In this document: in pieces, positions 1 through 17,477 of the stretch
How positions within the stretch are numbered: the first letter of the stretch is position 1
Layout: every line of letters starts with the position of its first letter
Assembly (NCBI GenBank): GCA_030374765.1
Contig: JARGXX010000016.1
Coordinates: forward strand, 1 to 64,000
Reading direction: 5' to 3'
DNA: 64,000 nucleotides
From: Agarophyton chilense
Lineage: Eukaryota; Rhodophyta; Florideophyceae; Gracilariales; Gracilariaceae
Made by a program: the position numbers and the translations under genes
The notes under the pieces: generated by a model
The model's database searches: none
Told to the model about the DNA's origin: nothing
The model's input: only the letters and a program-made list of their open reading frames with translations

Positions 1-264
1 TCAAACTCCTCAGCATACTCATCCTTCACCATGTTCCAGGCAACCCTCAATATGTCCTCAACAGCCAGTGGCAGAAACCTCTCAAACAGCGTCGAGAACA
101 AAAGTTGCCTTTGGCCTCCCCGCCCAACGTCTCTATCCATCGTGGTCACCACACATCCAATCCATGCATCAAGTCGCACAAGATGCATCACCGTCCCATC
201 CACATACTGCCTTTCTCCATTTCTGTGACTCTCTACCGCATAGCCATAAACTCCTCCAACACTT
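1..264 (-). other. open coding-like stretch running off the window edge
   Basis: On the minus strand a frame different from that of 265-801 is open from about 255 to the window edge and reads like protein (for example YVDGTVMHLVRLDAWIG and RQLLFSTLFERFLPLAV). It is probably a downstream part of the same gene as the minus-strand ORFs up to 2409, reached through an intron or a frame break. The product is not recognised. The gene continues outside the window, so its end cannot be given. Confidence 0.35.
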
Positions 265-801
265 TCAACGACACCTGATTTCGAAAATACATATCTGCCT
301 CACCAAAGTCCTCCAAGTTCTCAGACACCTTCGATCCAGAATAAGTAATATCTTCAATCGCACTCGTTCTCCACGCACACAGTTTACCTCTCCCATCCCC
401 CTCGACCCCATCAACTTCTCCTGCGCCTCCTCAATCTGCTTCTCCAACTCCGCCCAAAGCTCCGTCCCTTCAGTCACCTTAGCTCGTTTCGCGATCAAAT
501 CATATCCAAGCATGCAAAACAGCTTATCACGCGCTGCTCGCTTCCGCACCCCAACCACATCGCTCAATTTCTGCTTCGTCCTCTGTCTCAAGCACCTATC
601 CGCACTTACATTTTCCACGCACTCCTCTCTCCTCCCCGCTTCCCTTATCGATTCCCATTTCTCTCCCATTAACTCAGTCTCTACCACGTGCTTCAACAAC
701 AAATGGCTCCCGCCCTCTGTCGACGGCGTATACGGTCTCATCTCATATGCAACCTCAATTGGACATCTCGGAACCATTTCCTTCTCTACCACCACAAACA
801 T
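265..801 (-). CDS. hypothetical protein fragment, third ORF of a broken or spliced minus-strand gene
   Basis: 178 aa, charged and mostly helical, with an acidic helix (ELWAELEKQIEEAQEKL) near residues 115-135. It lies in the same frame as the ORFs at 844-1872 and 1876-2409, so the three look like pieces of one gene interrupted by stops or carrying short introns. Near its 3' end another frame gives a more protein-like continuation, which suggests the gene is decaying. No known domain was recognised. It shares orientation with the methyltransferase-SET gene upstream of it and may belong to the same accessory block. Confidence 0.35.
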   Translation of the reverse strand: MFVVVEKEMVPRCPIEVAYEMRPYTPSTEGGSHLLLKHVVETELMGEKWESIREAGRREECVENVSADRCLRQRTKQKLSDVVGVRKRAARDKLFCMLGYDLIAKRAKVTEGTELWAELEKQIEEAQEKLMGSRGMGEVNCVRGERVRLKILLILDRRCLRTWRTLVRQICIFEIRCR

Positions 802-843
802 ACTTTCCTTCCTACTCTCCCCAACCGCCTCACTTCTATTCTT

Positions 844-1872
844 CTAGCTTCGACCCACATTCTCGGTATCGAAGCAAAGTTCCGATGCCTCCAGTTTTGC
901 ATAATGAAGAATCCTATCATGCATACGACGTGCAAATCCATAAAAGCATTCCTGCACTCCAATGACATGCTTTCGTCGCCGCGTCACGCCTCCCTCCCCC
1001 CTCCCTTCCCCAGCGATTCTACCTTTCAACGCCTCCCTCAAACTCTCAATCAGCACATTCTGCTGCTTCATTTCCTCCCTCGCCCGATCCAGCTCCGTTT
1101 GGGTCATTTTCAAACTCACCATCACACTGTAGCTGTCTTCCTTCATACTTCCCATTTGTCCCTTCACCACATTCATCTTCTCAATTAGCATCGACCGCGG
1201 CAACAAACCTATGTCATCATCATTTGCTTCATCTTCCACTATACGGACGGCGTTCTCCACGACATTTAAATTCGCATTCTCCCCGTTATCATTATTCCTT
1301 GTGAATACAATGTTTCTCCTTACTCGCATACCTTCCGGCGTCCTTCGCCTTGAGTTCACCTCAAACCCTTCAACTCCCAAACCCACCTCTCTCCTCGGTG
1401 GCAAACGCTCTACATCTTCTCTCTGATGAGAAAAAACAGCTGCTCTTCCATCGCCTTCCTCCCCTGAACCACGTGTTCTCCCTCCAGCAAACCCCCTTCT
1501 CCCCCCCTCACTCACATGCACTTCTCTGCTTTCCGTTCCGTCTATCGCTCTTCTTCCTGTAACTCGAACACTACCCATTCTTTCCCTTGCACGCTCTCTC
1601 CTTTCTTCCACGTAATCTAAGTTCGCCCCCTCCCATCTTTCCGCCTGTTCCCCCGCGGTAACTCCAACACTCTCTCCTTCTGTTCTCTCTCGAACGACTC
1701 TTGCGCCCGCGATTAGACCACTACTGGGTCCACCTATTCTACCCTCCCCACCACGGCTACTGTCTATTCTCCCTTTCTGTATCTCATCATCACCGTCCTC
1801 TTCCCTCATACCCGTAAACGATGCCCCTGCTTCTTCAACGCCTCTGAGGCGGGATCCACGTTCTCCGATCAT
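844..1872 (-). CDS. hypothetical coiled-coil protein fragment
   Basis: 342 aa. The first ~180 residues are low-complexity, rich in Gly, Arg and Glu. Residues ~225-285 form a clear coiled coil (IEKMNVVKGQMGSM, then TELDRAREEMKQQNVLIESL). A basic stretch (RRRKHVIG) and a conserved-looking tail (FYGFARRMHDRILHYAK) follow. It directly follows the ORF at 1876-2409 in the same frame, so the two probably formed one protein with a basic N-terminus and a central coiled coil. That layout suits a structural DNA- or chromatin-associated protein, but no family is recognised and this role is inference. Confidence 0.4.
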   Translation of the reverse strand: MIGERGSRLRGVEEAGASFTGMREEDGDDEIQKGRIDSSRGGEGRIGGPSSGLIAGARVVRERTEGESVGVTAGEQAERWEGANLDYVEERRERARERMGSVRVTGRRAIDGTESREVHVSEGGRRGFAGGRTRGSGEEGDGRAAVFSHQREDVERLPPRREVGLGVEGFEVNSRRRTPEGMRVRRNIVFTRNNDNGENANLNVVENAVRIVEDEANDDDIGLLPRSMLIEKMNVVKGQMGSMKEDSYSVMVSLKMTQTELDRAREEMKQQNVLIESLREALKGRIAGEGRGEGGVTRRRKHVIGVQECFYGFARRMHDRILHYAKLEASELCFDTENVGRS

Positions 1873-1875
1873 TCT

Positions 1876-2409
1876 CTATCCCTCCTTACACCCCTTCGTC
1901 CTCTCATTCGGAATCTCTTCACCTCCTTCAGGCGCAGAGCATAGATTTACCGGCTCCACATCAGCTGAAGACGTGAGTACAGCACTTAGAGTCCGCTCGG
2001 ATGCATCCCCTCTCCTTGTCCTCCCTGGAGCTCTGCTCGCCCTCCCCCGCAATCCACTTCTAGGTACACGCGTGCGGTTGCTTCGCACGCCATCCCGTTT
2101 TCCATCGCCGCTCCGCACCATCTCTCCGGTAGGCGACGTGATTTGCTCCGTACGCGACGTGATTTGCTCCGCACTCTCCTCCGTCACCGTCTCCTTTGCG
2201 CGAACAGCCTTTCCTTTGCCCCCACTCGCCTCTCCTTCCCCACCATCTTGCCTTGATCTACCTCTCAGGCGCACGCCTCCCTTCTCTCCACTCGCGCCCT
2301 GGAGCCTACGCCCCTTGTCCCTTCGGCCCTCCGCATCCCCTCCATGCCGCCGTGATTTTGTACCGCGCCCGCTAGTGTTCTCGCTTCTCGATTTGCGCTT
2401 CGGAGCCAT
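1876..2409 (-). CDS. basic low-complexity protein, N-terminal part of the minus-strand gene
   Basis: 177 aa starting MAPKRKSRSENTSGRGTKSR. It is very rich in Arg, Lys, Gly and Ser, and the KRK/SRR clusters resemble nuclear localisation or DNA-contacting tails. A short tandem duplication (AEQITSR/TEQITSP, ~2130-2175) lies inside. The ORF is followed in the same frame by the coiled-coil ORF 844-1872. The start ATG at 2409 lies 325 bp downstream of the end of the methyltransferase-SET gene on the same strand. There is no recognisable domain. Composition suggests a nuclear protein. Confidence 0.4.
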   Translation of the reverse strand: MAPKRKSRSENTSGRGTKSRRHGGDAEGRRDKGRRLQGASGEKGGVRLRGRSRQDGGEGEASGGKGKAVRAKETVTEESAEQITSRTEQITSPTGEMVRSGDGKRDGVRSNRTRVPRSGLRGRASRAPGRTRRGDASERTLSAVLTSSADVEPVNLCSAPEGGEEIPNERTKGCKEG

Positions 2410-2733
2410 GGTTGAAGAGAGAGAGAGCGATCATGGTATGGTCTTCCACGCGTTGCAATGCGATGGATGGGAGAGAAGCTTCGAAACATTCTGCTTCCAA
2501 AAATATACCTCCACCCTTTTCGTGTTCTCAGAAAACCCCCAAACTTTTCAGATATTTTAAATATGCGCTCGAACGCACCAGATATTGGGAAAGTATTCTC
2601 CTTCGGTGTACATGACTTTCCTTTAGCATATGTACTACGTCACGCTTTGACGTTATATGTAGCGACAAACATAGTAAAAGCCCACAATATCTGGTACACT
2701 ACGATGAAGTAAAGTAACAAAAGCGATGCACTT

Positions 2734-5700
2734 TTAATCGATTACTACGACTGGCGTGTTATTTATACTCCAGATATACTGTGTCCCATAATCTGCGAAC
2801 AGCTCCTCTCCTATTTCTATATCTCGAATTGTTTGCACAGAAAGCAATCTATAGTCTCTCAACTGAAATGGGGTCCGCCCCGTCCCCGGAGTTCTGATGA
2901 CCCGAACATTTGCAGTTCGGCGTCTCATTAACCCGTCTTCAACCGCATTCCTGTCTCTATCCCCTTCCACATACTTGAGGTCGTTAGTTGTTCCCCCCAA
3001 GAAAAATGGAGCAGGGACAACCCACACCGGAATAAGAGACACCCCATTAAATCTTCCTGGTAGCTTGTGAAACACTTCCCCTCGGACGCTTATCTCCATC
3101 GCGTACTGCCGAAAACGATCAGCAGTCGCTTTCAATAGCCCCCCTCCGTATGCCTTATGAACTTCCTTCCGCTTTGAAAGATTATGGTACACCAAAGTCC
3201 CGTAAAAGTAACAAACAGTCTCACCTTGTATCACCCGGCGTGTTGTATACACACCAACTCCAGCATTCGGGTGCCTTATCGTCGACTTTGCAATCCGACA
3301 ACCACATACTGTCGCCTCCACTGCCAGAATAGCATTCCAATCCAACAGTGACATCTTCCCTTGAAAACTTGTTGGCCACTCATACAGCGCCTGCCGTCGC
3401 CCAATCTCCGGTATATTCTTATCCTGCCACATGCAGGAGAGAAAATCCACGATATGGGGTGGAAACATCTGATGCTCGGGAAATCCGGTAGGTGTTTCCC
3501 AGGACTTCGAACGCTTTATGACGACGTCCGGAAACAAGCATGTCACTCGAGTCACAGAGTTCCGAACATCTTGCGTTATATGAATGTCCGTCTCGTTGTT
3601 CCGCATGCATGACGCAAATTTCACTGTAGCGGCGTGCTTCGCATAAGCAAAGCACTGCGGATCTGGCTCACACCCTAGAAACTGACGGTGCTTTTCCAGT
3701 TCCATGCATGCCATGGCCGTTGAAAATGTTCCGGCGAAGAGGTCCACCACTATGTCTCCCGGCTGAGAAAACCTGCTGATGAGCTCCTTCAGCAAAGCGC
3801 GTGACTTCTGTTCCGCCCGCACTTTCTGATACGTAACTGCTCCTTTGGCATTCTTCCTTCTCCATAGAAGTGATTCACCATTCGACATAGGAGGCACTTG
3901 GTCAATCACGCTATGGTAACCCGGATATCGCGATGGTACATAGCTGAAGATCTCATAGTTCACCATGCCATGTTGTTCGGCGTAGGACAACCCGCTGCGA
4001 ACTCCATGAATGGCGTACTCTGTTCCGGGAAACAGGGAGCACGAACTACGTCCGGGATTACGCATCGGATTGCCTTGAGAGCGAATGAAGTGCAGCTGGA
4101 CCTTGTCCACGACAAACGACCTGCTCTTCTGTCCATTCTCATCCTTTGCACCAGTTCGACCCAACACTTCTTTCCATTCGTTCACCTGCTCAATCGCGCA
4201 GAATATAACGAAATGCCCTTCTGGACGCAGAAGTTTAGAGATGAGCTTCGCCGTCTTCACCATGTCTTGCCGGTTAAGAACGTCGTACCAGCTGTTTTTC
4301 CTGTTCTTCTTCGCACGTATATTATACGGCGGGTCCGTGAGAACCAACTGCACTTTCCCTATCGGAGAGACCCCATTGCTGCGCAATGTCTCGTCAATCT
4401 CCACCAGGTTCTCGAAAGTACAATTGTACATTCGACAGTGCTTATCCATCTCCGACTCGCACTTTTGGAGAGACATTATATCATCCAGAGAGGTAAGGTC
4501 GTGAGGCGGCAGAATATCCACCGTCTCAGATTCGACCGACCTTGGTCCAGCTGTGGAAGAATGCTGACCAACACCAATGTTCTCTTCATCATTCCCGGTC
4601 CCACCCTCCACTCTCTCTCCACCCTCCACCGCCGGAGCCTCCGAATCTTTCTCAGGGGGTACAACTTCTATCTCGTCTTCTTCCATAACCATAGTAGGTT
4701 CCGCCTTAGTCGCAGCCACTACTTCCACCTCCACACTCCCTCGCAGCTTTAGTGGCGATATGTATTCCGAGATGGTAGAGATAAGAGAGTTCGAGAAGCA
4801 GTCGAATCTCTCCGCAAACACTCTAGGCAAAGTGTATGTAAACGGTTTTAGAACGTCCCATCTTTCCGGAGCTGATATAGAGTAAAGCTGCTCATTCACC
4901 ACCACTTTGTGCAGGTCAGCAAGAAACTCTTTGGCCAACATACGAAGTGGAGTGTCAACATACTCCGGCAGGTTCCACGCCCATGGGACGACATCCTCCT
5001 CCAATAAAGTACGGTTTCTACCAGGAAGGAGTCGTTGGGCCATGTCCTTGTTAGAGAACCCATCCCTTCTGTTTCCGATTGCCTGGAACTGCATATCAGA
5101 ATATCGTAGATGGATAAAGGGCAAAACCATGAATTCCACGCCAGGGAATCCCAAATACTGGGCGAAACTGTCCCACGCGTTATTGACGAGCTGCACACCA
5201 AAGCCCACACGCTGAGCTACTGGTTTGTCATAAATCGCCACCTTCGAAAATGGCGTATCGTAGGTTCTGTCCCGCTTTCTTCGCTTACGGGAGACTCTTG
5301 TCTTCTCCATAGAGACCGACTGAATACAAATGAGGAACAGCAACCTCTGGAACATTGTCGGGAAGTCGGTCGCGAATGAAGCCCGGCTTTTGCTCGCCTT
5401 CTTTCGGGTTGTATCCAGACCTTTGAAGAACTCTGTCAAAGTGACATTCTTCGGGATGCCCTTGAACTCCACCGCTTCGTACGCGTTCCAAAAGTCCCTC
5501 ACGCGCCTATCTGGGTCCCCATCCCTTATATCCAGCAACCTCGCCGAGAAATAATTCTGACAGTTCGAGCCCCTCATTCCTACAACTCGGAGCTCATCTT
5601 CTGTGTAATTGGTGTGGTCGGGACCTAGGAGAGTATAAAAAAACTTCGCAGTCTCCGGTAGGATGTGGCGATTGGCAATTGCGAAATCGATGAATGCAGT

Positions 5701-5865
5701 GTGCCCCACTTTTCGCGGCTCATCTTCCTCCCACCTCGTTGATGCGTAACGATCACGCAAATCCAGACACGCCCTGATAACTTCATCCCCCGTACCAAAC
5801 AGTTTACCCGTTTCGAAGGTGTCTGCCGCAGGCGATGAAGAAATTCTCGTGGGTTCTGAAGCCAT
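2734..5865 (-). CDS. DNA methyltransferase-SET domain fusion protein
   Basis: 1043 aa, unspliced. Residues 1-370 are an unassigned helical region. Residues ~385-475 are an acidic linker. A methyltransferase domain of the N6_N4_Mtase type follows. Its catalytic DPPY (511-514) comes before the SAM-binding DLFAG (708-712), the order of the beta class of adenine-N6/cytosine-N4 DNA methyltransferases. A SET domain fills the C-terminus (~855-1035), with G869-V-G871 in the SAM loop and EELFADYG ending at Gly1027. The usual NHS-x-x-PN segment is not obvious (nearest: LGGTTNDLKY), so SET activity is uncertain. Such a protein could modify DNA and a protein such as a histone. It is divergent from the ParB-dioxygenase gene across the palindrome at 6040-6725. 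The reading frame is whole. DNA specificity cannot be read from sequence. Confidence 0.8.
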   Translation of the reverse strand: MASEPTRISSSPAADTFETGKLFGTGDEVIRACLDLRDRYASTRWEEDEPRKVGHTAFIDFAIANRHILPETAKFFYTLLGPDHTNYTEDELRVVGMRGSNCQNYFSARLLDIRDGDPDRRVRDFWNAYEAVEFKGIPKNVTLTEFFKGLDTTRKKASKSRASFATDFPTMFQRLLFLICIQSVSMEKTRVSRKRRKRDRTYDTPFSKVAIYDKPVAQRVGFGVQLVNNAWDSFAQYLGFPGVEFMVLPFIHLRYSDMQFQAIGNRRDGFSNKDMAQRLLPGRNRTLLEEDVVPWAWNLPEYVDTPLRMLAKEFLADLHKVVVNEQLYSISAPERWDVLKPFTYTLPRVFAERFDCFSNSLISTISEYISPLKLRGSVEVEVVAATKAEPTMVMEEDEIEVVPPEKDSEAPAVEGGERVEGGTGNDEENIGVGQHSSTAGPRSVESETVDILPPHDLTSLDDIMSLQKCESEMDKHCRMYNCTFENLVEIDETLRSNGVSPIGKVQLVLTDPPYNIRAKKNRKNSWYDVLNRQDMVKTAKLISKLLRPEGHFVIFCAIEQVNEWKEVLGRTGAKDENGQKSRSFVVDKVQLHFIRSQGNPMRNPGRSSCSLFPGTEYAIHGVRSGLSYAEQHGMVNYEIFSYVPSRYPGYHSVIDQVPPMSNGESLLWRRKNAKGAVTYQKVRAEQKSRALLKELISRFSQPGDIVVDLFAGTFSTAMACMELEKHRQFLGCEPDPQCFAYAKHAATVKFASCMRNNETDIHITQDVRNSVTRVTCLFPDVVIKRSKSWETPTGFPEHQMFPPHIVDFLSCMWQDKNIPEIGRRQALYEWPTSFQGKMSLLDWNAILAVEATVCGCRIAKSTIRHPNAGVGVYTTRRVIQGETVCYFYGTLVYHNLSKRKEVHKAYGGGLLKATADRFRQYAMEISVRGEVFHKLPGRFNGVSLIPVWVVPAPFFLGGTTNDLKYVEGDRDRNAVEDGLMRRRTANVRVIRTPGTGRTPFQLRDYRLLSVQTIRDIEIGEELFADYGTQYIWSINNTPVVVID

Positions 5866-5927
5866 TTATGTACATGTTCAAACAACCTCACGGGCAGTCG
5901 TCACGAGAGCCTGAGTGAAAGAGAGCA

Positions 5928-5960
5928 GCGGGTGCGGGTGGGTGCGGGTGGGTACGGAAA
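5928..5960. repeat. G-rich 10-bp tandem repeat
   Basis: Short tandem run of GGGTGCGGGT-like units just upstream of the methyltransferase-SET start, between the gene and the palindrome. It could be a promoter-proximal element or simple-sequence slippage. Confidence 0.6.
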
Positions 5961-6039
5961 GATTGTGAGTACGGTTGAGGAGCGCGCACGGAAGAACGGT
6001 TGTTGCGGAACGACTTCGCAGCTATCCTGGTTGCATTCT

Positions 6040-6725
6040 GTCGGCCGTCAGAGGTGCGCTCCGACTTCATCGGGGGTCCCGATGAAGTCCCCGCGCACCT
6101 CTGTCGACCGTCATAAAACATATAGTTTTGTAATTTTTAGGACGCCCAGGTGTACACGGTGCATTCTGTCGGCCGACAGAGGTGCGCGGGGACTTCATCG
6201 GGACCCCCGATGAGGTTGGAGCGCACCTCTGTTGGCCGACAGTCGACCAACATCTCAGAAACGCATCATGCGTGATGTTATGGCGTATTTGTCGGCCGAC
6301 AGGGGTGCCCTGCGACTTCATCGGTCCACCTATGAAGTCGCAGGACACCTTTGTCGGCAGACAATTCACCAAAATGTTGTAGGGACACCATTCGGGCCAT
6401 TTATGGGCCGCCAGGGGGTGTGCTGCGACTTCATCAGTGGATCGACGAAGTCGCAGCACCCCCCTGGCGGCCGACAAATACGCCATAACATCACGCATGA
6501 TGCGTTTCTGAGATGTTGGTCGACTGTTGGCCGACAGAGGTGCGCTCTGACTTCATCGGGGGTCCCGATGAAGTCCCTGCGCACCTCTGTCGGCCGACAG
6601 AGTGCACCGTGTACACCTGAGCGTTCCAAAAATTACAAAATTATATGTATTATGTCGGCCGAAAGAGGTGCGCGGGGACTTATCGGGACCCCCGATGAAG
6701 TCGGAGCGCATCTCTGTCGGCCGTC
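6040..6725. repeat. hierarchical palindrome of six ~72-bp hairpin units
   Basis: Six units lie at 6040-6112, 6169-6241, 6291-6362, 6404-6475, 6526-6598 and 6654-6725. Each is itself an inverted repeat: an outer GTCGGCCGAC, an AGAGGTGCGC arm, a GACTTCATCGGG inner arm, a ~3-base centre, then the mirror image. The units are paired 1-6, 2-5 and 3-4 about position ~6383, and the spacers are mirrored as well (6113-6168 with 6599-6653; 6242-6290 with 6476-6525). The result is a ~686-bp palindrome with a ~41-bp unique centre. It occupies the intergenic space of the divergent methyltransferase-SET and ParB-dioxygenase genes. It may be a binding platform, a replication or partition site, a foldback transposon, or nested MITE-like insertions. 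Confidence 0.9.
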
Positions 6726-6817
6726 AGGATATTTTTAATTTTTTAATTTTATTTTCTTGTATCGCCTACCAAGCCAATAGGCGTGTTTGCGATGGAAAGA
6801 GACAAGGAGTTTCTTTA

Positions 6818-6872
6818 GTTTGAAACTAAGCGGACGTAGCTCAGGTTGAAACTAAGCGGACGTAGTTCAGGC
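6818..6872. repeat. two tandem copies of a ~26-bp motif
   Basis: Two adjacent copies of a ~26-bp unit containing GAAACTAAGCGGACGTAG lie ~150 bp upstream of the plus-strand ORF at 7017. Position suggests a promoter element for the ParB-dioxygenase gene. This is inference. Confidence 0.6.
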
Positions 6873-7016
6873 TGATTGCAACAAACTGCTCTCGGGAGTG
6901 TTCCGGATAGTCGCCACCAAAGGAGCTCGATCTAATACGTCTTAGTCTGTATACCATAAAAGGCTCAAAGCGCTCTGCGACCATTTGCAACCTCGACCGA
7001 CTACGATCCGATTCAA

Positions 7017-7856
7017 ATGATGACTCGAGGCAAAGCGAAAGCGAGGGGTACTCCGCGGGGTACTCCACGCGCCACTCCGCGAAAAGCTACATCGGGAAAC
7101 AATCTGGCTGGTGGGGATAGGGTGGCGTTGTTCCTGGCGGATGGGACATGGAAGAAGAAGGGTACTATGGTTGGCGCTGCGGAGTTGAGAGGTGTTGGGG
7201 GCAGTGGAGCGGCCGGGAAGGCGCTTTGCAGAGCGATGCATGGCCATTCGTTGCGCGAGTCTGCGAAGCCGGGAGAGGACTTGATGGCCATCTGGAGAAC
7301 TGAAATTAAGGAGGAGATCAACTCCAAGTATCCGTACTCCTTCAAGGGAGCAGAGGAGCCACCGGAGTTGCTGAAGGATATTGTGTCGGCAGGTATATAC
7401 ACATGGGATACCTCGATGATGACACGCGTCTCCTCTGTGCTGACTCCAAGGCCTCCTCGGCCGGAGACTCCCAAAAAACCAACCCCCTCGAAGGAGTATG
7501 CTACGCCTTTGAGGGGGAAGAGGGCACAGCCAACAACAGTGCCGCCGGCCATGAAGCAACCCGTTAAGCCGAAAAAGAGGGTGACGATAGTGGATGATTC
7601 TGATGAAGATGTTGTGGAGGTGGGGTCAGCGGTGAATGTACGCGGGGATTCGCACACCGGTTCCGAGTTGGAGTTGTTCGATGACGGCGATGCCGTTCCT
7701 TCGCAGGAAGTGGATAGGACTCTCGTGGAAAAGAAGATCTCTGTTTCAGACTATGACCAGTGCCGCTTGATTGTGGACATAGATGACATACAAATCCCCA
7801 AGAAGACTGTCAGAAGTGTGAATGCGGAACACAAGGCGGCGACGATGGCAAAGTGA
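7017..7856 (+). CDS. basic N-terminal leader of the ParB-like/dioxygenase protein
   Basis: 279 aa from two adjacent ATGs (7017, 7020). It begins with a basic repeat (GTPRGTPRATPRKATS) of the kind that contacts DNA or carries a nuclear signal. A folded-looking region covers ~40-125, then a Pro-rich linker and a KPKKR cluster. Its last ~35 residues (LIVDIDDIQIPKKTVRSVN, then EHKAATMAK) look like the first strand and helix of a ParB/Srx-type domain. The remainder of that domain, DGHHR, lies in the next ORF in the same frame only 57 bp on. The two ORFs are therefore probably one gene. Read-through, a short intron or a broken copy cannot be told apart here. Confidence 0.6.
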   Translation: MMTRGKAKARGTPRGTPRATPRKATSGNNLAGGDRVALFLADGTWKKKGTMVGAAELRGVGGSGAAGKALCRAMHGHSLRESAKPGEDLMAIWRTEIKEEINSKYPYSFKGAEEPPELLKDIVSAGIYTWDTSMMTRVSSVLTPRPPRPETPKKPTPSKEYATPLRGKRAQPTTVPPAMKQPVKPKKRVTIVDDSDEDVVEVGSAVNVRGDSHTGSELELFDDGDAVPSQEVDRTLVEKKISVSDYDQCRLIVDIDDIQIPKKTVRSVNAEHKAATMAK

Positions 7857-7913
7857 AAAACGTTTGGCTGGCTTGCGTCGGCAGGGTCGATTGCTGTTGC
7901 CATCGTCGGGGGA

Positions 7914-10703
7914 ATGGAATTAGATTTCAGTGAAATTGTTCACAATGGGAGGGTAGTGGTGCCTGTCATACTCATTGACGGTCATCACCGCGTCTTGGTT
8001 CTGCGAGATCTGAAGAATGATCCCTCTGAAGGGAGAAAGTGGTCGGAAACTGTGCGGTCTCTTGATGTCGTTCTTTGGAGACGCAAGGACCGGAAGCCTT
8101 TATCGCTGAACGAAGTGCTCGGTCTTGGTAATGTACTCAATGAAATGAGTTCAAATGTGTTGAAGATGAGTTTCGCCGACAAGGTTCACTCGACAGTGTC
8201 CTTCATTTGCAACTTGATTGACGATAAGAGAACCAAGTTGGCTGACCTTACTCCGACACGGATAGCTGGGGCGCTGAAGACGAGCGAAGCTATAGGAATC
8301 TACAGCTTGCGCCACTTGAATCGCTATGCGACTCTTGGGTTGAAATTCGTCAGGAGCGAAGGTCTCCTGGAGTTCTTTGAGAACGTATGCAAGGAGGGTC
8401 CAGTGCTAACGCTTGCGCATGTGTCGAGTGACTTGTTGTTAGGACTCCAAGACGAAATATTCCGTTTCGCAATCCGTTGTTTGCAGCTACATGTGAGGGT
8501 GAGGATGGGTTCTACGGGGAATATGGGACGTTTCCAGGAGACGCGAAAGCAGTTCTTCCAATGCGCCACAGGAATGTTCCAACTACGCGAAAGGGCGGGA
8601 AAGGAGAAGGGTCTGACGGCGGGGAAGGTTCTAGACAGCACAATCGTGATGGGAAAGAACGAGGTGTCTTTAAGGGAGTACCTTTGCATTCAAACGGCGA
8701 AGATGGAGCTCAGTGGTCCGAAGCGGTTGTGGCCGGGGTTGGTGTCGAAGAGGATGAAAATCGCACAAAGGCGGATTGAAGGCGGTCTGAGAGTGAGTCT
8801 GGCGTCCACAAGTGCGGAGAAGGATGTGGTGGAGGTGCCACCTTCTGTGAATGTTCCTTCGTCTAGTGCTGGGGATTCTGTACCCCACCAGGAAATCGTG
8901 GTTCTCAGACGCATCACACGAACTAGAAAAGGTACTGAGCGCGGGCTGGATGCTGCGGGTGAGAGGGTGATGGAACCTAGACAGAGAAAGGAGAAGAGAA
9001 AGGCTGTGGTCATTAGTGATGATGAACGCGAGTATGAACAGCCTTTAATGCGGAAGAGGAAGAGGAGAAAGACGGTGGGCACATCTGCGGCTCAAATACC
9101 GGCTGACGTGGTGGATGTCTTCAAGAAGATGAGCAGGAAAGAGCTGAAGCGCTTCTTGAAGGAACATGTACTCAATGTTTTCTCATCGAGTGAGGATGAA
9201 CTGGATAATGACGGGGGGCAGGGTGCATTTGTAGGGGACGAAGAGGAGGAAGGTGTGCAAATGCGTGGCTTCGAAGACAGTAATCCGGAGGGTGTTCCGA
9301 AGGGGCTGAAGAGGGCGGGACCGTATGCGGGGGGGTACGGTATGTCGTGGGTGTACTTGGTGAATGCACTTCCGAGCGAGTGGCCGGCGGGTGAAAATGG
9401 AGTGAAGCATCAGCACCTCTGGATGCAGATGATTTACCTACGGAACAAGCACAGGGCGGAGTGCTTGAGGGTAGAAGACTTGAAAAGTGTGCACCATGCG
9501 GTTTATTGGCGTGCTGCTCATAACAGGCACAAGGAACTGGGTTCCACGAAAGAACCGGTTCTTGGGGTGATTCTACCGACGAAGGACCACCCTGTGAATG
9601 AAGAGCAGGCGATATGGATGGCAGAAATGGAGAGGGATGACTTGGCCCGCGAGTACTTCGCGACTAAGAGAAGTGAGCTGATGGAGAAAGGATTTTGTGT
9701 GCTGGAAGAGTTTGCCACGGACGAGGGGATGGCGGATGAGTCGAAGAAGAGGGGGGTAAACTTCGATGGGGATGTGACTGGTACTTTGCTAGAGTTCTTC
9801 CAGACGGATTTCTTGAACCAGCCGGACTTGACGATTGAAGGGAATAGAAGGAAATGGGACCCTATAATCAACGCTGGTGAGGAGAGAGACGCTGGAGATA
9901 GAATGAAGGGAGTTGGGCGGTACATTACGACGAAGGTGGGGATTGTGGATTCTGTGGAGGAGGCCGAGAACAACGTTTTGATGGTGAGGAAAAGGGCATT
10001 GTTGGATGCGAGGTTTGGACAGATTGCGGCCGCTCTTCGGTTGTGCAACAACCGGCCGGGGAAGAAGAGGATGTATGCCCCTGAACCAGGGGGGCGAGTG
10101 CTGTGTACGGCGGAGGGCCGTCCAAGGCAGGTGTTACATACGGACTTTCGAGGACTGACCGATGCCGAGAAGAACGTCGGAGAGGTTCCAGGGTTCTTCA
10201 TGATGGCGTCGGGAGCGAGTTCGTTTATGCTTTGGGTTTGTGAGAGGTCATATAACATGTACGTGCCCGACGACAGGAGCTTGAAGCGGCTGTCTCGGAC
10301 GATGGTAGTGAGGAAGTTCAGGATTCCGCCGTACTCCATTTTTATTGGAAGAGGAGATGTGTTTCATGCTGGAGCTGGATACGAGGATGCATTGGTTAAG
10401 GAAGTTTGCATGAGGTATCTCATGTACTTGGTACCGGAAAGGTACAAGCTACCGGACGCAGTGCATAGGCAACCAGCATTTCGGCCTAAGGTCGAAGAGG
10501 ATGATTCCAACAAGGGTGATGATGAAGACGTCCAGGTAGATGAAGATGAGGAGTTGGATGAAGATTATAAAATGGAAGTTGTTGAAAGTGGGGAAGAGGA
10601 GAATGAAGAAGAGGATGATGAACCTGGGATGGGTCTCAACTCGGCTAACACAGATGGAGACTATGAAGACGGCAGTATGATAATGGATGAAGACGAAGAC
10701 TAG
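7914..10703 (+). CDS. ParB-like domain and 2-oxoglutarate/Fe(II) dioxygenase fusion protein
   Basis: 929 aa. Residues ~10-40 hold VPVILIDGHHRVLVL, the signature of ParB-like nuclease/Srx-fold domains (DGHHR at 22-26). A helical region follows (~60-290), where ParB proteins carry DNA-binding helices. Residues ~300-480 are basic/acidic linker with nuclear-signal clusters (RKRKRRK). The C-terminal ~280 residues match the double-stranded beta-helix of 2OG-Fe(II) dioxygenases: EKGFCVLEEF at the domain start, H742-T-D744, H818 in GRGDVFHAG, and R834 for 2-oxoglutarate. The tail is strongly acidic. Proposed role: palindrome-binding protein that oxidises a nucleic-acid base or protein, paired with the divergent methyltransferase. 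Domains are read from motifs; substrate is unknown. An AATAAA lies just after the stop (~10727). Confidence 0.7.
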   Translation: MELDFSEIVHNGRVVVPVILIDGHHRVLVLRDLKNDPSEGRKWSETVRSLDVVLWRRKDRKPLSLNEVLGLGNVLNEMSSNVLKMSFADKVHSTVSFICNLIDDKRTKLADLTPTRIAGALKTSEAIGIYSLRHLNRYATLGLKFVRSEGLLEFFENVCKEGPVLTLAHVSSDLLLGLQDEIFRFAIRCLQLHVRVRMGSTGNMGRFQETRKQFFQCATGMFQLRERAGKEKGLTAGKVLDSTIVMGKNEVSLREYLCIQTAKMELSGPKRLWPGLVSKRMKIAQRRIEGGLRVSLASTSAEKDVVEVPPSVNVPSSSAGDSVPHQEIVVLRRITRTRKGTERGLDAAGERVMEPRQRKEKRKAVVISDDEREYEQPLMRKRKRRKTVGTSAAQIPADVVDVFKKMSRKELKRFLKEHVLNVFSSSEDELDNDGGQGAFVGDEEEEGVQMRGFEDSNPEGVPKGLKRAGPYAGGYGMSWVYLVNALPSEWPAGENGVKHQHLWMQMIYLRNKHRAECLRVEDLKSVHHAVYWRAAHNRHKELGSTKEPVLGVILPTKDHPVNEEQAIWMAEMERDDLAREYFATKRSELMEKGFCVLEEFATDEGMADESKKRGVNFDGDVTGTLLEFFQTDFLNQPDLTIEGNRRKWDPIINAGEERDAGDRMKGVGRYITTKVGIVDSVEEAENNVLMVRKRALLDARFGQIAAALRLCNNRPGKKRMYAPEPGGRVLCTAEGRPRQVLHTDFRGLTDAEKNVGEVPGFFMMASGASSFMLWVCERSYNMYVPDDRSLKRLSRTMVVRKFRIPPYSIFIGRGDVFHAGAGYEDALVKEVCMRYLMYLVPERYKLPDAVHRQPAFRPKVEEDDSNKGDDEDVQVDEDEELDEDYKMEVVESGEEENEEEDDEPGMGLNSANTDGDYEDGSMIMDEDED

Positions 10704-10784
10704 ATAGTATCTGTTACCTATTGAACAATAAAGAGTACAATTTGAGGTAATATGTGGAGTAGTCCCCTTTTCTTGTAATAGTGA

Positions 10785-11555
10785 TCAGTCGTCTTTCAGT
10801 AGAAACTCCTGAACAATTGGGTTGAAACGCGTGAGAGTAGCACTTGCTTTCACTTTCTCATAGTGAATGAAAACTGTCGAAGATATCAAGATTACGACAT
10901 CCACTGTGTTACCAAGCAGTATAGGAACACCAGGGCCCTCAATGCGAGAGGTGGAGAAGGCGGTTGAAGAGAGTGCAGCGAAAGTGCATGCCGACAGCCT
11001 CATACCGAGTAGTCGGAAGGTTACAGCCGGACTGGATATGAATAAAGCCCGTTGAAAAGAGTGGGAGAGGGCGCCAAGCACGAGGTTCATAAAAGAGGTT
11101 CTCCGTGGTTCCGGGGTCATTGTGAACTTTGTGTTAAGATAGGACTCTGGAAAGAAGGATATAGAAACAAGCTGGAGAAGATATGCCAAAGCGCCAACTG
11201 CGGCCCCTCCTGTGGAGAAGGCGATACAATTTGTCTTCACGTCTGATGAAAGGGTACCGCTGACTGGAATGAAGCGGTGAACGAGGAAAAGTATGGCGTT
11301 GAGGGGGATGAGTAGAGTAAGGAGTAGAGCCCCGAATTCCAGAAAGGCTCGTTTCTTCCAGGTATATCGCTGGTTTGGATTGAACGGCGTAGTTTGTAGA
11401 GACCCGTATAACGCGTTTATACATTGTACGCCTCCTTCGATTATGAGAATGTGTAGCAGGCTTTGGACAGGACACCTCAATAGCGTTATGAGAATGAACC
11501 GAAGGAGAGAGTTGAATCTGAATGGAAGCGTATATTGCAGAGCGGGGTCTATCAC
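10785..11555 (-). CDS. multi-pass membrane protein, unknown function
   Basis: 256 aa as an open frame, with about four or five hydrophobic segments (LLRFILITLL; EFGALLLTLLIPLNAILFLV; AAVGALAYLLQLVSISFF; VDVVILISSTVF). The codon at 11555 is GTG. The frame stays open upstream with another hydrophobic stretch and stops at a TTAG that is preceded by TACTAAG, a good branch-point and acceptor combination. The 5' exon is therefore probably upstream (see 11626-12252). It is tail-to-tail with the ParB-dioxygenase gene, 81 bp apart. No family is recognised. Confidence 0.55.
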   Translation of the reverse strand: MIDPALQYTLPFRFNSLLRFILITLLRCPVQSLLHILIIEGGVQCINALYGSLQTTPFNPNQRYTWKKRAFLEFGALLLTLLIPLNAILFLVHRFIPVSGTLSSDVKTNCIAFSTGGAAVGALAYLLQLVSISFFPESYLNTKFTMTPEPRRTSFMNLVLGALSHSFQRALFISSPAVTFRLLGMRLSACTFAALSSTAFSTSRIEGPGVPILLGNTVDVVILISSTVFIHYEKVKASATLTRFNPIVQEFLLKDD

Positions 11556-11625
11556 TCCGAAGAGTGTAGTTAGTGTGATTGTGAACGTTAAGGTCGATGT
11601 GAGGAGTGTTTGCTAACTGAACATC

Positions 11626-12252
11626 TTAGTAAAAACGTTCCGGTTTGCTAGTCTTCCTTGTACGCTGCACATAGGTAACGATATGATACCGCTCTTTGAA
11701 CAGTTGTTTAAGAGTATCTTGCTGCTGTAGGGAGCTGCGAGTGGGGAGCCTCCTGGTGGTCCTACAAATGTCACGAATCTCGTCCATGAGCTCGTTGGTG
11801 ATATGATTCTGGAACCCTCTGACTTCGACCACATTCTAGGTGGTTGGAAGTTTGATTTGAAGGACTTCGTCGATGGTGATAACCGTTCGTTGTGGAAGAA
11901 TATCCACAGCTGCTGAGCATTGGACAGACGAACCAGGGGGTAGGGAAGGACGTGCTTCGTAGCGCTGCATGCTTGAGAAGGAGAGGAGAGTGTTGTGTAG
12001 AAAGGTATTTGTGAGGGACTGGATACAGTATGTTGAGCGCAATGAAGTAGGGTGGTCATCGGTGGATATATATATGTAGTGATCAAAGTAGTTGTTAGGT
12101 TGTTGCCGTATCTCTGTCGCGGAGTATGAATAATTGTTATGAATGAAAACCTTTGCTGGGCTGTAGGAGCGGTTATTGGGTACAGACTTAATTGAAAAGT
12201 TGGAAGATTTATGAAGAGTGGTTGTAGTGATGATTTGTGATGTACGAAGCAA
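11626..12252 (-). pseudogene. probable 5' exon(s) or remnant, unknown function
   Basis: Two minus-strand frames, 11836-12252 and 11626-11832, are in the same phase and separated only by one stop and one codon. The protein-like stretch runs from MQRYEARPSLPPGSS to HITNELMDEIRDICR and DTLKQLFKERYHIV. It ends beside the TACTAAG...TTAG acceptor of the downstream membrane-protein frame, so it may encode its soluble N-terminus. Whether the gap is an intron, an error or a true break is unresolved. There is no recognised domain. Confidence 0.3.
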
Positions 12253-12562
12253 TTCTTAATATCGTTTCATATATTCTGACGTGGTGTCGTGCGGATAGCA
12301 GTCTTTATCGAGGCAGCGAAGGAGATGGACATATGCTTTAGAAAGGAGGACTTGTTTTTATTAGAAGGGGTATATGAATGAAGTACTACCCATTGAGGAG
12401 GACGTTCAAGAAGTTCGTATGGAAAGGGGCGGGGTCACGGTTTCCAATGGATTTTTGGGCGTTAGAAACGTTGTAGAAGTAGACGTTCCGAAACTAAAAG
12501 CCTGAGAACGAGGTGGGGAACTGTGTAAGTGTTTTTCCGTGGGCCAGAAGTTTTTGGAGTGT
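12253..12562. other. intergenic, no gene seen
   Basis: No supported ORF, RNA gene or repeat was recognised here. It separates the two minus-strand genes at 10785-12252 and 12563-13210. Confidence 0.5.
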
Positions 12563-13210
12563 TTATGTTGTATTGTAGGCGATTCCTGTTTCGGATGTGA
12601 CGATGGCGAGGAGCTCTTTCATTATGGTTGAAACGACTGTGCGGTGTTGTACTGCAACTTCGTGCATTGTGATAAAGCCATAAGAGAAGCCGACGAGACT
12701 AAAAGCTGATATCCATACGAGTTTTTCGTAGTAAGCTTTAGAGAAGGAGGGCTGGCCGACGACATGACAAGTGAGGCCTGCGGTACTGAGGCGATTGGCG
12801 AGTACGGGAGCCCATTTGCCGGTGGCAGTTGTGAGACCATGGGGACTGAGGAGGGTGACACTGTCCTCGGGGGGTGCGTTAAGGGAGGGGACGGCGAGGA
12901 AGAGAACGGCTTTGGTGCAGTTTTGGAGCCCATAGATTGAAAGAAGAGGGAGAATGTTTCCGTTCTGAAGGAAGACCAGATCCTCTCTGCGGGAGGAAGG
13001 GCAGAATTGAATGACGTCTTCGAGTGAATGATTTCTGCCGCAGAAGAAAATGGGGCCGTCGGGGATGTATTGCGCGGAGATGAATTCTTGAGTTGAGAGA
13101 AAAGCATCTTGTGGGGTGCCGTTGTTGCGAAGCAAAGTGCCGATTCGGCCTCTGCCGACAATATCGGCTGGGTCGGAGGTGCAAGGGATGGCAGTGAGAG
13201 AGTCGGTCAT
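12563..13210 (-). CDS. ketopantoate-reductase-like NAD(P)-binding protein
   Basis: 215 aa from an ATG. Residues ~18-30 read VGRGRIGTLLRNN, a shortened Rossmann GxGxxG-type loop. A segment near 55-90 (PIFFCGRNHSLEDVI, then REDLVFLQNG) places a phosphate-loop strand and the QNG motif of ketopantoate-reductase (ApbA/PanE) relatives. The C-terminal YEKLVWISAFSLVGFSYG resembles the helical domain entrance where the catalytic Lys sits (EKL). It is shorter than PanE (~300 aa) and resembles compact algal/plant homologues of unknown substrate; that comparison is from memory. It is not necessarily a pantothenate enzyme. Confidence 0.55.
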   Translation of the reverse strand: MTDSLTAIPCTSDPADIVGRGRIGTLLRNNGTPQDAFLSTQEFISAQYIPDGPIFFCGRNHSLEDVIQFCPSSRREDLVFLQNGNILPLLSIYGLQNCTKAVLFLAVPSLNAPPEDSVTLLSPHGLTTATGKWAPVLANRLSTAGLTCHVVGQPSFSKAYYEKLVWISAFSLVGFSYGFITMHEVAVQHRTVVSTIMKELLAIVTSETGIAYNTT

Positions 13211-13570
13211 GTTGATTGCGAAAGGTGTTTGGAGTGCGGCGTGCTTGGAATTGAAGAAGTGGTGGGGGTGGCGAGTGTGGAGATGTGATTAAATAGAGAA
13301 GGAGTATGGTTGTGGAGGAATGGGTGTTATGGGTTTTTGGGAAGGAGATTAGATTTATGATATTGAATGGTGTTTATCGTGTTAAAAGTGTAGGAGTGTG
13401 TGTTGTTATGGAAGTCATAACGGGAAAGAGGGCTTATGAGTAATCGGCGGTTTGTGTTACGAATGAGTGTGACTTATTATAAATGAGAAGGCTATGAAAT
13501 TTGGAGTAGTGAGGGAGCGCTGAACATGATAGAAGGTGTAGGAATATGGATGGGAGTGTGTGAGTGAGCA
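13211..13570. other. intergenic, polypurine-rich, no gene seen
   Basis: G/A-rich stretch upstream of the ketopantoate-reductase-like gene. Nothing beyond skewed composition was recognised. Confidence 0.5.
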
Positions 13571-14252
13571 ATGAGTGGGGTGAAGGGCATCCGGAGCGTA
13601 GATGCAGGGGTGTACGAGGGTACTGAAATTGGGCGAGCGCGCGCGAAAAGCGGGTCAAAAAAAGGATATAAACGGCCGGAGGTGGGCGAGAGGATTTTCG
13701 AGGGGGGTGCTGTGTGGGGGGCTGCGGGTACTACTGGCCGCACTAAGGTGAGTGCGCTTGCGCTTGCGGTGGCTCTTGTCGATAGCTTTCGCGGGCGTTG
13801 GCGATATCGAGTGGATCCCCATGGGGCTGGAGATGGGGAAGGTGTGGAGGGCGAATGAGGAACTGAAGAGGCGTGTGAAGGTGTTGGAAGTGCACATGGA
13901 AGGGGTGGGGTAGATTTGGGGTGCGCGGAAGGTGTTGAAGGAGGTGGGAGAGGAGAGGGGGAGAGCGAAAGGGTCGCCGGTGACGCCAGGGAGACGCGGG
14001 GAGCCGGCTGGGATGAAGAAGGGGAGAGAGGAATGGAAAGGGGGAGGAGTTGGAGAGAGTCGGCTGAAGAAGAGGAGGGTTGGTAAGGATGTGGAGAAGA
14101 ATGGTGGGAATGTGTGTGGGGTGGGGCAGCCGGGTGTGAGGAACTTGAGCAGGTGGGAGGTGGACGAGGTTGAGAATGCAGTGGTGGACTTCGTCAACCT
14201 CAAATACCCTCCCGGTGGAACGCTGGAGCCTAGTAAGCAAAAGGGCCAGTAA
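13571..14252 (+). pseudogene. basic coiled-coil protein remnant at the left flank of the retroelement
   Basis: Strongly purine-biased stretch with protein-like plus-strand segments: a coiled coil around 13790-13915 (EELKRRVKVLEVHMEG), a basic linker, and a conserved-looking tail at ~14138-14215 (NLSRWEVDEVENAVVDFVNL). The best frame is not continuous. It ends just before the retroelement begins, so the gene may have been cut by that insertion. Long opposite-strand ORFs here are composition artefacts. Product unknown. Confidence 0.3.
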
Positions 14253-14857
14253 GGAGGTAGAAGGTACTGACGACTGCCTTGGTATGGATCTCCACCTAGA
14301 GCGGTCAAAAGTGACCAGTAAACTGCAAATGCAGATTAAACTGCATTAAGTGGTCAAAAAACTAAGATGCATGGAGTTCTTATTTCCAATTTTTTTTTCA
14401 GGTGCCGAACTAGCGCAATCTGCAAAATTCTTAGATTTTTTGGGTTTTTATTTACAAAACTAACTATCTAGCACACTTATTTAGCATTCCGAGAACACAG
14501 ACGCAAGAGGTCCCGGGGAAGGTAGATCCTCAAGACATTTATCTGCCAGCAATTACTGGTTTCGTTCAAAAGGATACCCATGGAGGTGGTCCCAAGGAAA
14601 ATTGGTCTGACTCGTTGGATGAGCGACGAAGAAACCGAAAAGGGAAGAAGCGGAGGACGAAGAGGGGAAAGAATCGAGAGGATGATTCAGACCCCGACTC
14701 GTCAGACTCCGGCTTCGATACGATTTCATCTTCGGATGATGACTGTAAAGGTGAGAAGAAAAAGAAACCGAACAGGTAGACGAAGAAGTCGTCGAGAAAG
14801 ACCCGAAAGGGTAAAAAGCGATACAATGAGTCGCCCGACTCTGAGCCGGACACCGAA

Positions 14858-15328
14858 ATGGACCTGGAGGTGCACCAACCGTTGAACGATATGTTCACCA
14901 AAGCGGTTGATTACAGCACTTATCGGTTGATCAACAAGTCTTCTGAATACACCCAAGAGGTTGCTCAGAAGATCACAAAGAACCACAAGAAGCTCAGCTT
15001 CCAAATGGGTGACACAACCTTCACAAGTACGGATCCTATTGCGGTGATTGAGTTTCTACAGAAGTTCAAGCTTGCATGTGACCAAAATGGTTTTTCTGAG
15101 GGCGCTACTATGTGGCTATTTCAGTTTTACCTGAAAAGACAAGCATACTACTTGCTGCAGGGTAGGCTCCGCGGCAATACCTTAGCGATGGGTGAGGATG
15201 GCACAGAGCTGTTGGAGTCATACCCAGCAGTGGTCAATTTCCTTTTGGAAACATACGCCACCGATGAGGTTATCCAAGAGGCTTATTCGGAAGTCCTCGC
15301 CTACCATCAAAGGTCTGGGCAAACCTAA
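14858..15328 (+). CDS. Gag-like part of the Gypsy element
   Basis: 156-aa helical region resembling retrotransposon Gag (IEFLQKFKLACDQNGFSEG, ALA-type helices). It lies upstream of the protease and RT regions. Fossil element, named by position and helical character. Confidence 0.5.
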   Translation: MDLEVHQPLNDMFTKAVDYSTYRLINKSSEYTQEVAQKITKNHKKLSFQMGDTTFTSTDPIAVIEFLQKFKLACDQNGFSEGATMWLFQFYLKRQAYYLLQGRLRGNTLAMGEDGTELLESYPAVVNFLLETYATDEVIQEAYSEVLAYHQRSGQT

Positions 15329-16727: not shown

Positions 16728-17477
16728 ATGAGTTCCAACCGCGACTTCGCGAAAAACCAACATCTCGGATTCCCCGACATAGTAAAATACTACATGGCCG
16801 AACCCAGCCTGCAAGTGGAAGGCCAATCGATACCCAGAACCTTGAAGGTGGAAGAGAACACGTCACAACCAGTTTCGGCTTGTCCTATGAAGTACAACAA
16901 TAATAAAGTACGTGCTTCAATGTGTTTCTTTGATCGCCTTGCGGTTCCGGTCATCTGCGTGTTGGATACGGGGGTCGGCCCAAACGTCCTGAACTCCCGC
17001 GTCATACCAGAGGCGGTACTTCGGATCTTAAGCCGACCTCCCGACAATAACCCGCTGGTGGATGCAAATGAGCGCCCATTAAACCTTCGAGGTATGCTCA
17101 CCACTGTGGTGCAGCTCGGACACCTCAAGGTAAGACTGCAATTCTTTGTTGGCGACCGTTTACCAACAGACTGCCTTCTAGATACGAACTTCATTTACAG
17201 ACATGTGAAAGCAATCCTTCCTGGATCCTATACCTTCGCCCTACGTCAGGGGGGAAGAATTGCCATTTTAGGTAATACGGAAACCAAACGGGGATCTTTC
17301 GTCAAACAGAAGAAGACAATATCCACCGAAACGGTCTCCAACAAAGTGCGCATTACCAAACCGGTTGCTATCCCGCCAATGCACCAAATATTAGTACCGG
17401 TGTCGTGTGCGACCCCTGAAGGACAATGCCCTTCAAGGGGGTTTCTTCTCCGGGACTTAAAGATTTCGCTCGCTTGA
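16728..17477 (+). CDS. retropepsin-like part of the Gypsy element
   Basis: Contains VICVLDTGVGPNVL, the DTG active-site motif of an aspartic retropepsin, followed by the LxFxVGD-type second half (LRLQFFVGDRLPTDCLLDTN region). Part of the fossil element. Confidence 0.65.
   Translation: MSSNRDFAKNQHLGFPDIVKYYMAEPSLQVEGQSIPRTLKVEENTSQPVSACPMKYNNNKVRASMCFFDRLAVPVICVLDTGVGPNVLNSRVIPEAVLRILSRPPDNNPLVDANERPLNLRGMLTTVVQLGHLKVRLQFFVGDRLPTDCLLDTNFIYRHVKAILPGSYTFALRQGGRIAILGNTETKRGSFVKQKKTISTETVSNKVRITKPVAIPPMHQILVPVSCATPEGQCPSRGFLLRDLKISLA

Follow-up and report, generated by a model that had tools for sequence, protein, structure and literature searches.

A Plavaka-type DNA transposon of the red alga Agarophyton chilense carries a divergent gene pair with DNA methyltransferase, SET, and ParB- and dioxygenase-like regions

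Introduction

Two large genes face away from each other across a long palindrome near the start of contig C16 (JARGXX010000016.1) of the red alga Agarophyton chilense, and we find that this gene pair is the cargo of a Plavaka-type DNA transposon. The stretch analyzed here, referred to as the window, comprises the first 64 kb of that contig, in an assembly of 79.8 Mb and 135 contigs. One gene of the pair encodes MT-SET, a DNA methyltransferase joined to a SET domain, and the other encodes ParB-2OG, whose motifs resemble those of ParB proteins and of 2-oxoglutarate (2OG)-Fe(II) dioxygenases. An earlier note, made from the letters of the window alone, had described two divergent multidomain genes astride the palindrome, an arrangement that we confirm (2737-5865 on the minus strand and 7017-10703 on the plus strand). 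The transposon context of the whole locus was absent from that note. Its suggestion of a selfish system is borne out by the location of the pair inside a Plavaka-type element with terminal inverted repeats (TIRs) and target-site duplications (TSDs), and by a related but diverged pair located at the end of a chromosome.

Results

The gene pair lies within a Plavaka-type transposon

The transposon occupies positions 1..14503 of the window on the plus strand, which represent the right ~14.5 kb of an element of ~18.6 kb, as established by alignment with eight further copies. These copies come from ten loci fetched at MT-SET matches, eight of which are of the transposon type; they were mostly chosen for a frame of 1043 amino acids (aa). 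All eight are 96-98% identical to the window over bases 1 to ~14503, with gaps at the palindrome, and their flanks diverge after the common last bases ...GAGAACACAGACG. They also reach further left than the window does. The contig starts within the element, so the left ~4.1 kb, with the left TIR and the transposase, is absent from the window. The copy on C92 measures ~18.6 kb in length, and in the copy c12a roughly the first 264 bp are missing.

A Plavaka transposase is encoded in the left part of the C12 copy; PF18759 matches it with an E-value of 1.1e-21 and 77.9 bits (cut-off 26.3) over profile positions 110-316 of 325. The C(2)C and H(3-4)H motifs of Plavaka are present as CHRC, HLLDH and other H(3)H matches (L013:1-2880). 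The 23-bp TIRs (left CGTCAGTGTTCTCGGAATGCTAG, right CGTCTGTGTTCTCGGAATGCTAG) agree at 22/23 bp, with one mismatch. The left end is common to seven of the eight fetched copies, the exception being c12a, and comparison of copy ends places the right TIR at 14481..14503 (minus strand) in the window. Each of the seven long copies with both ends read is bounded by an identical 2-bp TSD on its two sides (TA, TA, TG, TT, TA, CA and AA). Published Plavaka transposases bear C(2)C and H(3-4)H motifs, and their elements generate TSDs of 2 bp (subgroup A) or 2-3 bp (subgroup B) (PMC12730594). The published termini, TGT..ACA for A and CATCA..TGATG for B, are not matched by the CGTCA..CAGACG termini found here; these agree with B at 4/5 left positions, and no subgroup is assigned.

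Given the transposase, the TIRs and the TSDs, the gene pair is cargo of a Plavaka-type DNA transposon, an identification that we regard as very likely. From the transposase family we infer a cut-and-paste mode of movement. A virus or provirus was rejected, since transposase, TIRs and TSDs are present and no viral hallmark appears in the Pfam matches of the ten open reading frames (ORFs) scanned, some of which have no match at all.

A profile search of the genome yields at least 123 Plavaka matches. The exact TIR pattern occurs at 164 sites genome-wide (83 forward and 81 reverse), compared with 0 for a reversed-pattern control. Matching by hand from 100 of these sites produced 30 TIR pairs, nine of them 18.0-18.9 kb apart, 20 at 3.0-17.0 kb and one at 39.7 kb. 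This last pair is probably mis-paired, because c12a, which has no left end, lies within it; the 39.7 kb between its outward TIR matches (G000:C12:334864-374563) probably reflects the ends of two insertions, or nesting.

MT-SET joins a beta-class DNA methyltransferase to a SET domain

MT-SET (1043 aa; 2737..5865, minus strand) consists of an N-terminal region followed by a beta-class N6/N4 DNA methyltransferase and a SET domain, as delimited by its ORF, Pfam and PHROGs. The DNA methyltransferase domain (3634..4365, minus strand) is matched by PF01555 with an E-value of 1.1e-17 (hmmscan), and the best PHROGs match is the DNA methyltransferase family phrog_67 (E 1.4e-24, residues 501-742). Motif IV, here DPPYNIR, precedes motif I (FAGTF in place of FxGxG), a beta-class order. 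The SET domain (PF00856; 2785..3261, minus strand) scores 26.0 bits in a genome profile search, which is above the cut-off, and the chromosome-end homologue described below scores 25.9 bits; hmmscan of the window protein places the same family just below the cut-off (E 1.9e-4, 22.3 bits against 22.4). The fusion of a beta-type methyltransferase to a SET domain, as first read from the letters, therefore stands. A DPPY motif favours adenine, and on these assignments MT-SET could methylate DNA, probably at N6-adenine.

ParB-2OG carries ParB-like and dioxygenase-like motifs

The partner gene, ParB-2OG (7017..10703, plus strand), is a 1247-aa stop-to-stop frame in uninterrupted copies, as judged from the ORF list, the copies and the homologue. 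The window copy opens with an ATG at 7017 and is interrupted by one in-frame TGA at 7854-7856. Of the eight other transposon copies, three carry the full 1247 aa without a stop, and c73 reaches 1224 aa. An intron across the TGA at 7854 was considered and rejected, since a Cys codon takes the place of the TGA in three other copies, whose frame continues across it, and the homologue at the chromosome end consists of a single frame.

The N-terminal ParB-like region (7773..8012, plus strand) is assigned at the level of motifs only (VDIxxI...R...G...LLIDGHHR) and spans the TGA. A 2OG-Fe(II) dioxygenase-like core (HTD ... GRGDVFHAG ... RYxMY) follows at 10137..10442 on the plus strand and is kept in both the transposon and the chromosome-end families, in which the HxD...H residues and a distal Arg (H1126/D1128/H1202/R1218, L026 numbering) are identical. 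The HxD...H...R pattern was written after viewing the sequence, and it also occurs in 85/20000 shuffles and in 1/910 phage/E. coli ORFs. A regular expression for the ParB region, likewise post hoc, matched both families and 0/910 phage/E. coli ORFs, including ParB-carrying loci; it was discarded as over-fitted and is not counted as evidence.

Profile searches returned no significant match for this protein. Pfam gives only a chance-level match of the window ParB-2OG to DUF6887 (E 0.17, 12.6 bits against 24.2) and none for the homologue, and Pfam on sub-regions at E<=10 gives one further chance-level match, Peptidase_C93. Neither TET/JBP nor any other 2OG family is matched in ParB-2OG by Pfam, no match arises in NCBIfam or PHROGs at E<=1, and a PDB search at E<=10 retrieves no ParB or 2OG entry. 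Alignment of the ParB region with 51 phage ParB sequences plus the query by hhalign adopts a plausible register with a probability of 0.6%, which is not significant, and with the whole of ParB-2OG the best alignment to phage ParB fell outside the ParB region. At the search sensitivity used, relatives of ParB-2OG were not found in viral contigs, nor were relatives of the dioxygenase part in bacterial/archaeal genomes; YbiX as the seed of a 2OG alignment attracted zero relatives. A structure model of the 401-aa dioxygenase part (AlphaFold, single sequence) has a pLDDT of 32 and is unusable. The earlier note had called this protein a ParB-dioxygenase and cast it as an eraser. What remains of both proposals is the motifs, among which HxD...H...R is kept in a 41%-identical homologue; profile matches to ParB or 2OG, the absence of which that note named as refuting, were not obtained, and the window ORF is broken by the TGA.

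The palindrome is a feature of the transposon

The palindrome between the genes (6035..6730) has a hierarchical organization of ~80-bp hairpin units (TGTCGGCCGACA...GACTTCATCGGG), as revealed by repeat search and self-alignment. Originally sized at 686 bp, it extends over 696 bp and is genuine: it is 87.4% identical to its own reverse complement when gapped and 74.0% when ungapped, whereas 2000 random 696-bp stretches from 15-64 kb of the window, also ungapped, average 25.0% and do not exceed 33.6%. Its longest arms span 265 nt, are 91% complementary and contain nested hairpin units. A 26-bp tandem repeat (2.2 copies; 6820..6875), also found by repeat search, separates the palindrome from the ParB-2OG gene. 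The window (87%), c12a (88%), c12b (94%) and c73 (85%) have highly symmetric palindromes; those of c70 (72%), c117 (64%), c10 (61%) and c92 (53%) are less so.

The same palindrome sequence family recurs at Plavaka elements elsewhere in the genome. Among the loci listed, 34 of 40 distinct palindromes have a Plavaka match no more than 20 kb away, where ~6% would be expected. We therefore rejected the idea that the palindrome is an independent foldback element nested solely between the two genes. The six palindromes without a near Plavaka match are those of the window, C37, C116:683177, C16:541395, C3:196680 and C3:184592; in the window and at C37, the contig starts in or at the element. A short element of 4257 bp (C16:982452-986708, TSD AG) has the two transposon ends and still contains part of the transposase, the final 687 bp and a palindrome that is 51% symmetric within bounds set by hand. 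Three short TIR pairs (C3:97010, C25:1014693 and C79:834534) hold palindrome and Plavaka matches by coordinates, and TIR pairs of about 3-5 kb may resemble this internal deletion derivative.

A short transposon form lacking the enzymes still has the palindrome, which is therefore a feature of the transposon and no proof of ParB binding. The proposal that the ParB part reads the palindrome thus gains no specific support from its distribution, as the palindrome persists in a copy lacking both genes. ParB-2OG may nevertheless bind it in trans.

The pair recurs in the transposon family and, in diverged form, at a chromosome end

The window ParB-2OG protein as query finds at least 49 matches at no fewer than 48 loci, with 48 of 234 candidates scored. 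Among the matches listed, a divergent SET match lies within 8 kb at 30 of the 48 loci, a same-strand upstream Plavaka match lies within 16 kb at 41, and three have neither neighbor. The earlier note had named a lack of adjacency, between the two genes or with palindromes, as refuting its reading; the genome shows the two genes repeatedly side by side. For SET, 86 matches were listed, of which 74 were taken as MT-SET-like and 12 were dropped by judgement as host-like or partial (the eight best, L001-L008, together with C2:224262, C77:48297, C80:85786 and C7:556791). The 74 places divide into 29 of a chromosome-end type and 45 others. Fifteen of these 45 have no ParB-2OG partner among the matches listed, although two of the fifteen (C92:706631 and C68:69628) do carry ParB-2OG on reading.

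The 29 chromosome-end-type SET matches score nearly alike and lie mostly toward contig ends. Seventeen (14 plus-strand, 3 minus-strand) fall within 50 kb of base 1 of a contig, and the 12 found at high coordinates all have minus-strand orientation. Only one of the 29 lies within 15 kb of a Plavaka match among those listed. The three loci that were read (C95, C16 and C10) are 99% identical in their overlap outside a repeat array. From base 986, the C95 end displays CCCCTAAA-like telomere repeats, part of the repeat array and then ParB-2OG, an uninterrupted 1335-aa frame on the minus strand. Beyond it lie arrayed repeats of ~773 bp, the MT-SET gene (1141 aa, plus strand) and a RecQ-like helicase frame. 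At C10 and C16 the contig ends cut into MT-SET or the repeats, and the place expected for ParB-2OG falls beyond them; the chromosome-end ParB-2OG was observed at the C95 end and in a degenerate internal copy (L124).

The chromosome-end and transposon proteins are 35% (MT-SET) and 41% (ParB-2OG) identical, and catalytic-type motifs are kept across the two families. A blastn comparison of the window with the C95 locus gives zero matches. The ~773-bp repeats hold palindromes with arms of 57-64 bp that are 84-88% complementary; they share five 10-mers with the transposon palindrome and are unrelated to it in sequence. The diverged pair in a second selfish-looking setting suggests that MT-SET and ParB-2OG form a portable module rather than being chance neighbors.

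The RecQ-like frame at C95 is matched by PF00270 (E 4.7e-12), OrsD (E 2.4e-6) and TIGR01389 (E 1.6e-27, far below its cut-off). It extends over at least 1686 aa (C95:986-20985, joined coordinates 14943-20000), with the OrsD region in its N-terminal part. Telomere-linked RecQ helicase genes are present in fungi, and from its sequence the C95 frame looks like a helicase of this kind. As in the fungal case, the chromosome-end family has a RecQ-like helicase gene near the ends; unlike the fungal genes, it adjoins MT-SET, plus ParB-2OG at C95, the sole end seen whole.

Other frames in and beside the transposon

A broken remnant of a ~930-aa transposon gene lies at 265..2430 on the minus strand (ORFs 265-843, 844-1875 and 1876-2430). 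This gene is a single open frame in the C92 copy, and a Pfam scan of it finds no family above the cut-off. To the right of ParB-2OG, the ORF list contains a 275-aa frame (10785..11612, minus strand) that is hydrophobic by eye. Another minus-strand frame (12563..13288), which reaches 300 aa in the copy on C12, shows a weak and non-significant ketopantoate-reductase C-terminal match (E 0.09), and several more minus-strand transposon ORFs occur within 10785-14345. Beyond the transposon, a Ty3/gypsy-like polyprotein ORF was recognized by eye at 18234-20939, within 17620-20939. Positions 17620-18302 are a 92% match to the sequence immediately right of copy c10, possibly a long terminal repeat; from this match of its right flank, c10 lies beside or inside related sequence.

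Discussion

We propose, tentatively and as a little short of an even chance, that the gene pair is a chromatin-modifying module of mobile DNA that serves in anti-silencing or self-marking. The chromatin of the element itself would be the most likely target of MT-SET and ParB-2OG, with host chromatin as a possible second one. MT-SET would methylate DNA and a histone tail, and its partner, ParB-2OG, would be a DNA-binding enzyme that either hydroxylates a methyl mark or takes it off. As a result, the element would escape host silencing, or its copies would become distinguishable from host DNA. For the palindrome we envisage a role in cis: it would probably serve the transposon as a site for binding or for transposition, or else as a bidirectional promoter.

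Several observations weigh against this proposal. Motif I reads FAGTF in 9/9 transposon copies read, with the second Gly of FxGxG replaced, rather than FAGTG as in the chromosome-end copy at C95, and DNA methyltransferase activity of the transposon MT-SET is therefore doubtful; the writer role put forward in the earlier note keeps profile matches for both methyltransferase domains and is weakened to this extent. The ParB and 2OG assignments of the partner are putative, drawn from motifs without profile support. Among the places listed, hand counts give a near-full MT-SET frame (at least 1036 aa, no stop in the match) in 12 of the 45 non-chromosome-end places and a ParB-2OG frame of at least 1193 aa, again with no stop in the match, at 10 of 48 loci, so most transposon copies have decayed. 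The open 1043-aa frames of the fetched copies are no sample in this respect, and because copies were picked partly for that frame they are not used as evidence of selection. The ratio of nonsynonymous to synonymous substitution rates (dN/dS) is ~0.84 for MT-SET (28 pairs among eight recent copies with few differences; c73 was left out, as exact DPPYNI was required) and ~1.3 for ParB-2OG (three pairs of three recent copies, also with few differences), and there is thus no sign of current purifying selection. The palindrome and the genes can also part company: c105 has only 83 bp of palindrome, yet carries MT-SET and a 1047-aa ParB-2OG frame, and the short C16 element keeps the palindrome without either enzyme gene.

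These same data feed an alternative that we consider unlikely, in which the genes are passive cargo, captured by chance or surviving as relics, decaying and with no present role, and in which common ancestry explains why both families have the pair. The scarcity of near-full frames, dN/dS values near 1, the FAGTF motif and the existence of a gene-less short form, with others alike by coordinates, all favor it. Against it, catalytic-type motifs at 35-41% identity are hard to keep without long-term selection, a 1335-aa ParB-2OG frame is open at one chromosome end, and the MT-SET frame reaches at least 1130 aa at 20 of the 29 chromosome-end places (hand count), the last of which recent homogenization could explain.

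Slightly less probable again is self-restraint, by which the module would put silencing marks, in the form of DNA methylation together with repressive histone methylation, on the copies to limit transposition or host damage, much like plasmid copy-number control, with the dioxygenase reversing the marks at times. SET and methyltransferase domains in one polypeptide would make a dual writer, and bdelloid rotifers link amino-methylation of transposons with H3K9/27me3 (PMC8885841), but a selfish element is unlikely to retain its own silencer unless for copy-number control. A system of restriction-modification or marking-for-cutting, with MT-SET shielding element DNA by methylation and a ParB-like nuclease cutting unmodified DNA in transposition or against rival elements, is highly improbable: ParB_N and N6_N4_Mtase do share one protein in 2/7 viral-contig proteins scanned (one ParB_N below the cut-off) and the pair does share one element at most of the ParB-2OG loci listed, but the partner bears a dioxygenase-like motif instead of a restriction domain and its ParB-like region is non-significant by hhalign.

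Returning to the chromatin-modifying module, a bolder form of it can be imagined, which we hold to be unlikely as a whole. A portable two-gene epigenetic system would have colonized both the Plavaka transposon and the telomere-adjacent repeats beside RecQ, where it would read the palindromic array, a different one in each setting, that its genes flank; one polypeptide would write methylation on DNA and histones and the other edit it, building a selfish chromatin domain.

DNA transposons with epigenetic enzymes are a known theme, and what is unusual here is the enzyme pair and its second, chromosome-end home. TET/JBP dioxygenases occur in eleven transposon lineages of fungi, including Plavaka, for which an escape from silencing has been proposed (Kojima 2025, PMC12730594). 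The A. chilense element resembles the TET/JBP-bearing Plavaka and KDZ elements of fungi in combining a Plavaka transposase, TIRs and 2-3 bp TSDs with an accessory gene of dioxygenase type, here by its motifs (PMC12730594). Unlike them, it has no TET/JBP match, its dioxygenase-like region shares a protein with a ParB-like region, and the gene opposite encodes a methyltransferase-SET fusion. It also differs from fungal TET Plavaka in its ~18.6-kb length with several more ORFs and in its CGTCA..CAGACG rather than CATCA..TGATG termini, and ParB goes unmentioned in the main text of that study (PMC12730594). The HarbingerS and MuDR families of Phytophthora, cited in the same work, are likewise DNA transposons with a gene for a SET histone methyltransferase; they belong to other transposase superfamilies, and the citing passage names no DNA-methyltransferase fusion or partner (PMC12730594). 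Plavaka-flanked gene clusters of up to 50 kb are reported from Amoebidium, where tyrosine recombinases are named and the terms 'SET domain' and 'dioxygenase' are absent from the main text (PMC11244446).

The bdelloid rotifer N4CMT joins a bacterial amino-methyltransferase to a chromodomain and deposits 4mC (PMC8885841). It shares with MT-SET the union of a bacterial-type beta amino-methyltransferase with a eukaryotic chromatin domain and a link to transposons, whereas N4CMT is a host gene with a chromodomain reader as opposed to the SET writer here, and the portions of that study consulted do not present it as transposon cargo (PMC8885841). Phage ParB-methyltransferase fusions (PF02195 with PF01555; L088 and L079) likewise illustrate mobile DNA that uses a ParB-like region and a beta-class methyltransferase. 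They are single polypeptides with no SET or dioxygenase match, the ParB_N of L079 is below the cut-off, and the ParB similarity of ParB-2OG lacks statistical support. A survey of the open-access literature by titles and abstract openings, with subscription journals mostly outside its scope, found no pair of methyltransferase-SET and ParB-2OG genes in a transposon.

Transposons are usually viewed as the targets of DNA and histone methylation. If the module acts as we propose, these roles would be reversed, and enzyme-carrying Plavaka elements would extend past the TET cargo of fungi. Whether mobile DNA defines its own chromatin would then become testable in A. chilense, where many closely related natural copies are available for reading marks by long-read sequencing.

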